From: Bacteroidales bacterium
Lineage (GTDB): Bacteria; Bacteroidota; Bacteroidia; Bacteroidales; M50B96
Length of the DNA: 64,000 nt
Direction: 5' to 3'
Assembly: GCA_021740905.1 (NCBI GenBank)
Contig: JAIOYV010000005.1
Location: 62,001 to 126,000, forward strand
Shown one piece after another: positions 15,811 through 56,169 of this stretch. The translations under genes were made by a program, and so were the position numbers. Positions within the stretch are counted from its first letter, which is position 1; each line of letters starts with the position of its first letter. Under the pieces are notes generated by a model. It saw only the letters and a program-made list of their open reading frames with translations. It did not search any database and was not told the origin of the DNA.

Positions 15811-16139
15811 GGTGGATATTGGTAGCTTATGAAAAGTGTCGGTGTGACCCTGAATCACGTCGAGACCTGAATGTATAAAATCCTAGCGAGGGTTTCGCTC
15901 AAAGCGAAGCCCTCGCTGTATTTGGTTGCATTAAAAGTCGGGGCGCGAACAAAATGGGGCAGGCAGCGACTCAAGGTCGCACGCCGACTTTTAATGGATA
16001 GCTTGAATAATTCCCTATTTCCTTTTGCAACAGCGAAAACCCTTTCTTGTTTATAAGGAGGGTTTGGGCCTGTCCCGCCAAGCATGGGATAGATTAATGG
16101 AACAAGCAGCTCCACCATCCACCATTCACCATTTAAAAA

Positions 16140-16176
16140 TCAACATTCAACATTCAACATTCAACATTCAACATTC
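16140..16176. repeat. Five tandem copies of the 7-mer tcaacat
   Basis: The heptamer tcaacat is repeated five times without interruption. A looser version of the same words occurs near 55985-56100. No gene overlaps it. Confidence 0.85.
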
Positions 16177-47988: not shown

Positions 47989-49524
47989 TCATTTTACTGC
48001 TGAGACGGCCCAGTCAGGGAATTCATTTACATTGATATCAAAAACAAACGCCCCCCAATAATACATCAGTAAAGTGGCAAGAATCACAGCGATGATGTTC
48101 AGGATAAAACCAGTTTTTACCATGTCCTTTATTTGTAGATGACCTGTGCCAAAAACAATGGCATTTGGGGGTGTGGCAACTGGTAGCATGAAAGCCAGCG
48201 ATGCTGCCAGGGTTGCGGGGATCATCAACAACAAGGGGTTTAATTTTATGCTAATGGCTAAACCTGCCAGTATGGGAAGTATCATTTCTGTAGTTGCTGT
48301 GTTGGAGGTTAGCTCGGTCAATAACGACATGCTTCCCACAATCCCCAGGGTCAACATTTTTGGAGAAATGGATGCCAATGCAGCCAATTGCTCACCGAAC
48401 CATAGCGAAAGCCCCGACTCGACAAAAGCCTTGGCCAATGCAAAGCCACCTCCAAAAAGAATAACAATATGCCAGGGGATTTTGGCTGCAGTTTCCCAGT
48501 TCATCAAACGCTCTTTTTTTATCGATTTTGAAGGAATGATAAATAGGAGTGAGGCTATAGCAATGGCCACCGTACCATCGTTAATATAAGATGGTGTATT
48601 GAACAAACCTGCCCAGCCAGGAATTTTCAAAGTGCCAAAATCGAAGCCTGTACGAAATATCCAAAGCAATGCCAGTATTACAAATAGCATCAGGATAATC
48701 TTTTCTTCCAAGCCCATCCTGCCAAGCCGGATATATTCTTCCTTTATGCTTGTATGATTGAAGTTTTCCCACTTTTTTTTTGGTTTGTAGAGAAAATAAA
48801 GGAGCATCCAACAGGCAGAAAAAATGAGTAGGGTTACCGGTATCGCAAAAATAAACCAATCAGAAAATGATATTTCGGGGGCAGCCGGGAAAATGATTCC
48901 GATTATCCGGGCAAACGAAAGATTTGGAGGTGTGCCCACCAATGTTGCAATTCCACCGATCGAAGCAGAATAGGCAATGCCCAACAATAATCCAATAGAA
49001 TATTTCCCAATGTCTTTCTTCTCCAGACTTTCTTCTAACTTCAGGATTACCGACAAGGCAATAGGTACCATCATCATGGCAGTGGCAGTATTCGACATCC
49101 ACATGGAGAGAAAGGCTGTTGCCAGCATAAACCCAAACAATATCCTTCCCGGGCTTACACCGATCATTAAAAGGATGCTCAGGGCTATTCGTTTATGTAG
49201 GTTCCATCGTTGCATGGCGAGGGCCATCATAAAACCTCCGATAAACAAAAAGATGAGATGGTTGAAATACATGGCCGAGATGGTTTTTCCATCAACAACA
49301 CCCAAAAGGGGGAATAATGCCACGGGCAACATCGCCGTAGCTGCCAGGGGAATGGCCTCGGTAACCCACCAGATGGCCATCAACAATGCTACAGCAAAAC
49401 AATTGGTTATTGCAGGCTTGCCTGGTTCGAGATCAACAAAAAGGATTATTATCAGGGAAATTATTGGGGCAACAATCAGGGCAATGCGTTTGGTCGTGCT
49501 ATCATTTTCTGATGAATTCTCCAT
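47989..49524 (-). CDS. DASS/SLC13-family sodium:dicarboxylate or sulfate symporter
   Basis: 511 residues with about 11-12 membrane segments. The two signature SNT motifs of the family are present in the two halves: MWMSNTATAMMMVP (about residue 140) and LTSNTATTEMILP (about 405). They contribute to sodium and carboxylate binding. Between the halves, a polar loop (FLYKPKKKWENF) fits the known topology. The family imports succinate, fumarate, citrate or sulfate; the exact substrate cannot be assigned, though the dicarboxylate branch is plausible. It stands alone. Confidence 0.85.
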   Translation of the reverse strand: MENSSENDSTTKRIALIVAPIISLIIILFVDLEPGKPAITNCFAVALLMAIWWVTEAIPLAATAMLPVALFPLLGVVDGKTISAMYFNHLIFLFIGGFMMALAMQRWNLHKRIALSILLMIGVSPGRILFGFMLATAFLSMWMSNTATAMMMVPIALSVILKLEESLEKKDIGKYSIGLLLGIAYSASIGGIATLVGTPPNLSFARIIGIIFPAAPEISFSDWFIFAIPVTLLIFSACWMLLYFLYKPKKKWENFNHTSIKEEYIRLGRMGLEEKIILMLFVILALLWIFRTGFDFGTLKIPGWAGLFNTPSYINDGTVAIAIASLLFIIPSKSIKKERLMNWETAAKIPWHIVILFGGGFALAKAFVESGLSLWFGEQLAALASISPKMLTLGIVGSMSLLTELTSNTATTEMILPILAGLAISIKLNPLLLMIPATLAASLAFMLPVATPPNAIVFGTGHLQIKDMVKTGFILNIIAVILATLLMYYWGAFVFDINVNEFPDWAVSAVK

Positions 49525-49589: not shown

Positions 49590-49732
49590 GTCATTCAATA
49601 GTCATTTGCGTCGCGTCATTCAATAGTCATTTGCTTCGCGTCATTCAATGGTCATTTGCTTTGCGTCATTCAATGGTCATTTGCTTTGCGTCATTCAATG
49701 GTCATTTGCTTCGCGTCATTCAATAGTCATTA
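49590..49732. repeat. 25-bp tandem repeat, five full copies and one partial
   Basis: The unit gtcattcaat-agtcatttgc-ttcgc repeats at 49590, 49615, 49640, 49665 and 49690, with a partial sixth copy at 49715. Copies differ at only a few bases. Degenerate copies of the reverse complement occur at 50107-50227, so this array is the left flank of a larger inverted element. Confidence 0.9.
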
Positions 49733-50073
49733 TACTTCAAACGGGATAAATTTCCGCATCTCATCACATCTATCAAACCATACTGTCGCCTTAACGAGGC
49801 TTGGTAAACTTACTCCTTTTTAATTGCTACAATACTGCCGTTCCTGATGGAACTCTACTCAATTATTAAATATTCGATAGGCCTCGGAGAGGCGATAGTA
49901 TGGTAGAAACAATAAAGATAAAGACCACATAGCCTCGGAGAGGCGACAGTATGGTAGAAAAGTAGCAAGAAATTTCATGCACCTAAAACTTTCAGAAGTT
50001 TTGATTATTACCACCTTTTTATCAACCGATTGAATTTTGTCCTATTTCAGAAATTTATCCCGTTTTCAGTATA
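49731..50073. repeat. 24-bp inverted repeat enclosing four hairpin-headed units
   Basis: Bases 49731-49754 and 50050-50073 are reverse complements at 22 of 24 positions (shared core acgggataaatttc). Between them lie four short units, each a small hairpin followed by a tail close to agtat-ggtag-aa: minus strand at 49775-49800 and 49822-49853, plus strand at 49881-49909 and 49932-49960. Two have the head gcctcggagaggc. No reading frame of note is present. Confidence 0.8.
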
Positions 50074-50106
50074 AATAACTAATAGTTGATTTTGAGAAAC
50101 AAAAAA

Positions 50107-50227
50107 ATGACGTGCGAAGCACAAATGACTATACATGATGGATCAGTTTAATGACGCGCATAGCGCAAATGACAGCGAAGCAAGTGACGCACGAAGTGCA
50201 AATGACAGGGAAGCAAATGACGCAAAG
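50107..50227. repeat. Degenerate inverted copies of the 25-bp array
   Basis: Words such as gcgaagcacaaatgactat and aatgacgc-gcaaatgac repeat here in the opposite orientation to the array at 49590-49732. The last copy abuts the stop codon of the thioredoxin-like gene at 50228. A plus-strand reading frame through this stretch is only a translation of the repeats. Confidence 0.75.
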
Positions 50228-50560
50228 CTACTCAAACATCATGTTATAAGTGCGGCCCATTTCATGTTCCAATTCGCCAAGCCCAATGTTACGGCTTTTG
50301 CGGATGTATTCTCTACCATCGAAAAATACAAGTAAGGTTGGGACAGCAAAAATCCTTTCCTGGCCAGCCAGCTCTGGTAGCTCTTTTGTGTTTATATAAT
50401 ACATTCCGGTCTTTGGAAAATCCTTGGTCAACAATTCTTCGATCTTAGGTTTCAGAACTTTGCACACATTGCATTCTTCGTGCGAGAAATAAAAGAGTGC
50501 TGATTCCTTCCCTGTTTTTATTTGTTGAAATTCTTCTATTGAGGTGATTGTTTGAATCAT
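50228..50560 (-). CDS. Small thioredoxin-like protein with CNVC site
   Basis: 110 residues, a thioredoxin fold without signal peptide, so cytosolic. The redox motif is HEECNVCKVLKP (Cys30, Cys33), unlike the WCGPC of true thioredoxins, and the cis-proline is in FAVPTLLVF. Such proteins are often annotated as thioredoxin family reductases of unknown target. It starts six bases after ispF and is probably co-transcribed with it. The repeat array at 50107-50227 begins immediately after its stop codon, so its transcript runs into the inverted element. Confidence 0.78.
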   Translation of the reverse strand: MIQTITSIEEFQQIKTGKESALFYFSHEECNVCKVLKPKIEELLTKDFPKTGMYYINTKELPELAGQERIFAVPTLLVFFDGREYIRKSRNIGLGELEHEMGRTYNMMFE

Positions 50561-55647: not shown

Positions 55648-56169
55648 CCTTTCGTATATTTTTATTGAAGTGAACAATAGATGCACTTCAGCATAAAAAA
55701 TAAGCCACAGTTTTACCCTGCATAATTAAAAGCTTCAAAAATAATAAAATCGTTCAGAGCATTTATGTAGGATGTGGAAAAATGTGAAAATAGTCGTTTC
55801 AGGCCTCAGGCCTCAGTCGGTAATCTCCAGTCTGCAGACCAACAACCCAGCAACCAGTCCGTAGTATTCAGTCCACAATATTCTGTCGATAGTTGTAGAG
55901 ACGCGATTTATCGCGTCTTTTGCTGATTCTAAATATACTATTTAGACGCGATAAATTGCGTCTCTACCAACTAAATATCCAATATCGAACATTCAACATC
56001 CAATACTGAATGAGGAAGTACTTTTTCAAAGTTCTTCAATATTTCTCATTCAATATTTTTCATTCAATATTCATTATTGAATGTTCGATGTTCGATATTT
56101 TTATATTTCTGATTATTGAACCAGCCAGCACCCTATTCAGCACCCAGCACCCAGAAACTGCCAACTTAC
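55648..56169. other. 522-base repeat-rich gap without genes
   Basis: Between the TMTC-like gene and the methyltransferase gene lie two gagacgc palindromes (55895-55967) and inverted low-complexity words built from aatatcgaacattcaac (55981-56000 and reversed near 56078-56100). Short reading frames here follow the repeats and do not look like proteins. Confidence 0.6.
55895..55967. repeat. Paired GAGACGCG palindromes forming a larger inverted repeat
   Basis: agacgcgat-tt-atcgcgtct forms a hairpin at 55899-55918, and agacgc/gcgtct a second one at 55944-55963. The outer ten bases gtagagacgc (55895-55904) and gcgtctctac (55958-55967) are exact reverse complements, so both hairpins sit inside one larger stem. 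Same family as 39216-39304. Confidence 0.85.

Follow-up and report, generated by a model that had tools for sequence, protein, structure and literature searches.

The symmetrical, gene-free stretch of about 640 bases at positions 49590–50227 of the window (the whole 64,000-nucleotide piece of Bacteroidales DNA that was analysed) very probably consists of three independent repeat families nested in one intergenic region. These are a convergent tandem array of GTCATT boxes, a 343 bp MITE of an IS630-type transposon located in the central spacer of this array, and four hairpin-tail units carried inside the MITE. A puzzling symmetrical stretch is resolved in this way into three tractable pieces, and since the parts recur separately, its description as one 640-base element is wrong.

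Organisation of the intergenic region

The stretch is located between a sodium:sulfate-symporter gene (ORF 47989–49524) and a thioredoxin-like gene (ORF 50228–50560), which run in the same direction, both on the minus strand in the ORF listing. The layout described in the initial annotation was checked against the window sequence and is present at 49590–50227. There is no ORF inside, the right end abuts the stop codon of the thioredoxin-like gene at 50228, and a clean 25 bp array at the left is answered by inverted, degenerate copies at the right. Between these, a 24 bp inverted repeat (49731–49754 versus 50050–50073, 22 of 24 bases identical; 25 nt and 92% by an alternative repeat detection) encloses four hairpin-tail units, two in each direction.

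From left to right, the left arm of the convergent array (49590–49731, plus strand), defined by TRF, box order and step lengths, is followed by the MITE (49731–50073, plus strand), which begins and ends with TA and was delimited from its genomic copies and their sharp ends. Its left terminal inverted repeat, TATACTTCAAACGGGATAAATTTC, starts with the TA target (49731–49754, plus strand; termini alignment). The hairpin-tail units U1 (49777–49800) and U2 (49827–49853) are on the minus strand, while U3 (49881–49908) and U4 (49932–49959, 51 bp past U3) are on the plus strand. The right terminal repeat (50050–50073) reads TATACTGAAAACGGGATAAATTTC on the minus strand. It is followed by what is left of the original central spacer of the array (50074–50105, neither strand; the 374 bp centre minus the 343 bp MITE gives 31 bp) and by the right arm (50106–50227, minus strand), which is degenerate, contains small hairpins and stops where the thioredoxin-like gene has its stop codon.

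When the 345-nt core was folded as DNA, a z-score of −8.5 was obtained, with none of 100 shuffles as good; folding of the whole minus strand as RNA gave −11.7, with none of 20 shuffles as good. The cruciform potential of the stretch is therefore real on paper, as a predicted folding. No Rfam family matched in the window at the gathering threshold, and a structured RNA of a known family was dropped as a candidate on that account.

The 343 bp core and its copies

In the contigs of the same genome, the 345-base core was located at 27 places. Fourteen of these are within contigs, ten of them covering 300 or more of the 345 bp, and 13 are cut at contig ends, as expected for near-identical copies, which break assemblies. 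The best four other copies are 93–96% identical to the core. The edges of the copies are sharp and coincide with the terminal repeats, not with the hairpin-tail units. Among 58 termini from the core and related elements, the 24 bp end shows conservation that starts at TATAC and continues inwards, and a TA start, or nearly so, is present at 55; the outside flank is random, save for a pyrimidine before the TA (T in 39 and C in 9 of 53).

The terminal repeats are common to elements with quite different interiors, of 127–578 bp. In the same genome, elements of 578 bp (C107), 558 bp (C79), 190 bp (C118) and twice 131 bp (C52 and C141) have these ends and another interior. An ORF of 90 amino acids, similar in both, is present in the TIR-ended element of loci L045 (1244–1801, G000:C79) and L050 (1–429, G000:C36). 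The core is present in several copies, is short and has no transposase gene inside; the segment 49731–50073 is an IS630-derived MITE, an element of a common type that has unusual cargo and is located in an unusual host repeat. None of three same-family genomes has the MITE, and no true empty site was found. The core had no match in 50,697 phage records and the whole stretch none in 72,556 plasmid records, and a phage or plasmid origin was dropped for this reason. The terminal repeat, searched as an exact pattern, is absent from IMG/VR.

IS630 transposase partner

The autonomous partner of the MITE is an IS630 transposon, as revealed by the linkage of its ends to IS630 genes. The same terminal repeats enclose intact transposase ORFs, free of inner stops, in the related genomes G085 (L071, 746–1959) and G049 (L069, 723–1933), where each end differs at one to three of the specified bases. 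The G049 protein is an IS630 family transposase (NCBIfam NF033545, 187 bits versus a cut-off of 100), and the Pfam domain DDE_3 is found in both proteins. In the genome of the window, an intact cognate IS630 transposase was not found among the 160 contigs of the assembly, only remnants: C112, which is cut by a contig end, and C107 (L044, 2162–2739), an internally deleted copy that keeps, between its ends, matches to residues 1–95 and 299–350 of the IS630 protein. Having retained its two terminal repeats along with the beginning and the end of the transposase gene, C107 represents an intermediate toward a MITE.

The transposase fragment was matched in only 4 of the 393 genomes of the order, including that of the window. 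In named genomes the search with this fragment gave 40 pattern stretches and no relative, so a scan by terminal-repeat pattern was used instead. Named stretches with an exact match to the end number 75, all from Bacteroidota by title except one labelled Eubacterium. Their paired ends are mostly 131–393 bp apart, with 153 bp the commonest distance, and transposase homology was found near the end in 4 of the 75. The exception, L108 (DETV01000110.1), labelled Eubacterium sp. UBA3279, has the terminal repeat and may be a mislabelled bin, a contamination or a transfer.

Convergent GTCATT-box arrays

The left array (49590–49731) has a period of 25 with 5.7 copies and 95% matches (TRF). Each 25 bp unit is made up of an 11 bp step (GTCATTCAATR) and a 14 bp step (GTCATTTGCTTCGC) of the GTCATT box; with up to three mismatches allowed, the array core was matched 5 times versus 0.00 expected. 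In the right arm, the reverse boxes (AATGAC) are located at 50106–50221, in units such as TGACGCGCATAGCGCAAATGACA, so that the box order across the array is >>>>>>>>>>>><<<<<<. Further short tandem repeats are present in the window at 16123–16176 (CATTCAA, 7.7 copies) and 56035–56071 (a 14 bp unit, 2.6 copies).

Triple boxes occur in 62 of the 393 genomes of the order, with a backwards control that is usually, though not in all genomes, zero. Among the matches listed, 53 loci were sampled; 46 clusters with five boxes or more came from 45 of these, and the other eight had none. All 22 two-armed arrays among the loci listed are convergent (17 in the genome of the window and five in four other genomes), 24 arrays are one-armed and none points outwards. 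The convergent-array loci examined were L167–L178, L227–L231, L245 and L247–L252, plus that of the window (49590–49731 and 50106–50227). The centres of the 16 other arrays of the same genome measure 1–88 bp, while that of the window measures 374 bp, that is, 31 bp plus the MITE.

At 12 loci, the outer gene is transcribed towards the array in 14 of 24 arms. This is no clear relation, and the idea of an element of gene 3′ ends was dropped. The right arm contains a hairpin that resembles a terminator and has a run of T (50123–50111), on the same strand as the thioredoxin-like gene. Together with the intergenic position between co-directional genes, it would fit an insertion kept because its hairpins terminate transcripts or stabilise mRNA between the thioredoxin-like and symporter genes. 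We consider this unlikely: the terminator-like hairpin belongs to the array and not to the MITE, and no conserved gene context for the MITE was found. The reading that we favour, tentatively, is that the arrays may be a directional repeat that would bind a protein or affect transcripts and expand by slippage. In the available portions of the openly licensed literature nothing relevant was found on GTCATT repeats in Bacteroidetes, and within the openly licensed literature searched the inward-pointing arrays appear to be new. They occur in many genomes of the order.

Hairpin-tail units and Y1 transposase genes

Each hairpin-tail unit consists of a stem followed, on its 3′ side, by the tail GACAGTATGGTAGAA. 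With up to two mismatches, the unit is found in 19 of the 393 genomes of the order. When contexts were collected by their tail alone, 102 distinct ones were obtained. A stem that pairs perfectly over 5 bp or more is present in 64 of these, versus a mean of 0.9 in shuffles, and missing from the other 38. The stems have ten different sequences, which indicates compensatory variation of a real hairpin. An exact hairpin-tail core is also present, once, in an IMG/VR contig (L267, 12864–12881).

Within the pairs of the MITE the tails are spaced by 51 and about 52 bp, and free unit pairs in this and other genomes are 49–54 bp apart. Among the 14 of the 27 copies of the MITE that were aligned, one, C69, is without one 51 bp unit module, so units can be gained or lost on their own. 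The genome G049 has many terminal repeats and no strict hairpin-tail unit; the terminal repeat was sought in a minority of the unit-bearing genomes. The hairpin-tail units are a repeat separate from the MITE that carries them.

Y1 (HuH) transposase genes were searched in nine genomes, seven with units (including that of the window) and two, G015 and G049, with the terminal repeat, none of them chosen for Y1 genes. Thirty of the 44 matches were turned into loci and examined. At eight of these, hairpin-tail units adjoin the gene on one side or, often, on both, and frequently as pairs 51–52 bp apart; the other 22 are without units. The initial annotation had suggested looking for a Y1-type REP transposase, and Y1 genes with adjoining units are indeed present in related genomes. 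In the six unit-bearing genomes besides that of the window, chosen only for their units, 6 of the 39 listed units (of 40 counted) are within 500 bp of a Y1 gene, versus 0.066 expected, an expectation that takes no account of units and Y1 genes both crowding into intergenic DNA.

All eight unit-flanked loci fall within a single region of the Y1 protein tree (15 rows, support 83/87), in which six of the eight cluster as a separate group (support 86/84). A motif search found Q--HH in all 30 Y1 proteins, which bear the Y---Q--HH signature of subclass 1.2, known from Bacteroidetes and Cyanobacteria, a class assigned by motif and not by reference tree. At three loci (L187, 1264–2197; L202, 1105–2046; L200, 1271–2190), a Y1 gene with the subclass 1.2 signature has units on both sides in direct pairs 51–52 bp apart, and in L187 a 145 bp direct repeat with 98% identity brackets the gene. 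Six or more array boxes were found at none of the 30 loci.

In the genome of the window, none of the three Y1 loci examined has units nearby. The Y1 partner of the units is thus absent there or unassembled, and the units may now spread in this genome chiefly as cargo of the MITE. The units may have a role as Y1 substrates.

The bordering of Y1 genes in relatives, together with the missing module of C69, could also mean that the core is mainly of Y1/IS200 type, with the hairpin-tail units as mobile ends and the terminal repeats incidental. We consider this highly improbable, as the copies stop sharply at the terminal repeats and not at the units, and the same ends bound both the differing interiors of 127–578 bp and IS630 genes. 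The description of the units as REP-like holds in that they flank Y1 genes in relatives, but fails in their structure, which has no 5′ GT[AG]G foot, and in the protein signature, which is Q--HH and not Y---NP. On these two grounds a canonical GTAG REP was rejected.

Independence and nesting of the three families

The overall symmetry of the stretch and its strong predicted folding are what one integrated 640-base regulatory or structural element, a large cruciform or protein-binding centre working as a unit, would present. That explanation is extremely improbable. At 25 of the 27 places of the MITE, at most one array box is found within 600 bp (copies at contig ends show one flank only), the exceptions being the window and C94. 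Conversely, 16 of the 17 two-armed arrays examined in the same genome, those with centres of 1–88 bp, have no MITE between their arms. The units also occur apart from the other parts: genomes G075, G131, G142 and G228 have hairpin-tail units and no triple array box, and G049, as described above, has many MITE ends and no strict unit. The initial annotation had seen here one large symmetrical element, a claim it would have given up if its parts occurred independently; they do, and the complete arrangement was seen once, although each part is symmetrical in itself. The single 640-base element was rejected, because MITE and arrays occur apart.

IS630-type elements duplicate TA at their target. 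When the two flanks of the MITE are joined with one TA, AATAGTCATTAAATAAC results, in which an intact GTCATT box is restored; joined with none, the box is broken. This is suggestive of a TA-targeted insertion, although it is not proof. A duplication of the TA, which would be expected at such an insertion, is not readable from the ends alone, since TA ends look alike either way. A solo TIR-like stretch (C26; L173, 1021–1039) is present in the centre of another convergent array. As a landing in an array centre is unlikely by chance, this second case is a hint that IS630-type elements may prefer array centres as target.

The stretch could thus have arisen in the following order. A convergent GTCATT-box array would already have filled the intergenic gap when an IS630-type MITE, presumably moved in trans by a DDE transposase recognising TATACnnnnAACGGGATAAATTTC ends, inserted at a TA within the short central spacer of the array. 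The MITE would have brought along as cargo two oppositely directed hairpin-tail pairs, with about 51 bp between the units of a pair. These units are part of a different system and in relatives border genes for Y1 (HuH) single-strand transposases with the subclass 1.2 signature.

A further, joint reading is that the units are cognate substrates of subclass 1.2 Y1 transposases and that the inward arrays are a distinct class of directional element; we put it forward tentatively, as possible rather than probable. If it is true, subclass 1.2 is REPtron-like after all, its units can spread riding in an IS630 MITE, and the GTCATT arrays are perhaps bound by protein and are not ordinary minisatellites. 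The GACAGTATGGTAGAA tail and covarying hairpin mark a part of the Y1 tree reported to be without such repeats, and the units give subclass 1.2 a testable DNA substrate. A DDE-type MITE carrying HuH-type repeats would offer the substrates of single-strand transposons a way to multiply.

Comparison with known systems

Two things look new here, namely the association between the units and Y1 genes that bear the subclass 1.2 signature, and arrays whose arms point inwards. The former appears to be new within the available portions of the openly licensed literature, including PMC8266576. No paper on IS630-type MITEs in Bacteroidetes was found in the openly licensed literature. The nesting of small repeats has a precedent in pneumococcus, and the combination of a MITE with a tandem repeat is known from Porphyromonas, as far as the available portions of the respective papers describe them (PMC3049150, PMC4596501).

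The 343 bp MITE most resembles in its ends the RUP element of Streptococcus pneumoniae, described in the portions available as a MITE of IS630-Spn1 that has TA at its ends and terminal repeats like those of IS630, and for which mobilisation in trans was proposed (PMC2229807). However, RUP is 107 bp long and has no internal motifs reported in those portions (PMC2229807), whereas the element described here is 343 bp long and contains two inverted pairs of units. According to the excerpted text, the RUP, BOX and SPRITE repeats of pneumococcus are found inserted within each other (PMC3049150). The BrickBuilt element of Porphyromonas gingivalis is, in the accessible part of its description, a Bacteroidota MITE tied to a minisatellite, and thus likewise combines a MITE with a tandem repeat in this phylum; its repeat is inside the MITE and its ends are like those of ISPg1 and ISPg9 (PMC4596501), while in our case the array is outside, would be older, and the ends are of IS630 type.

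The array steps contain GCGTCATT, a similarity to the CGTC REPs, to which they were compared by description and not by consensus. In the sections available, these are intergenic repeats with a CGTC tag and a stem of 8–9 bp, without a dedicated transposase, found in Bacteroidetes among others, and clusters of them are rare (PMC3733652), unlike the long, strictly inward runs of our arrays.

The hairpin-tail units share with REPtrons the presence of small dispersed hairpins that border a Y1 gene and also occur elsewhere in the genome. In the account of PMC6006769, as far as available, the REPs of TnpA_REP/RAYT have 5′ GT[AG]G at the foot of the hairpin and a class 2 protein with Y---NP, whereas here such a foot is absent, conservation is in a tail on the 3′ side of the hairpin, and the proteins contain Q--HH. 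Subclass 1.2 of TnpA_Y1, which is marked by Y---Q--HH and occurs in Bacteroidetes, matches our proteins in both respects; the same portions tabulate it without REP and with terminal hairpins generally absent, a tendency and not a rule (PMC6006769), while in our loci 8 of the 30 genes have hairpin-tail units adjoining them.
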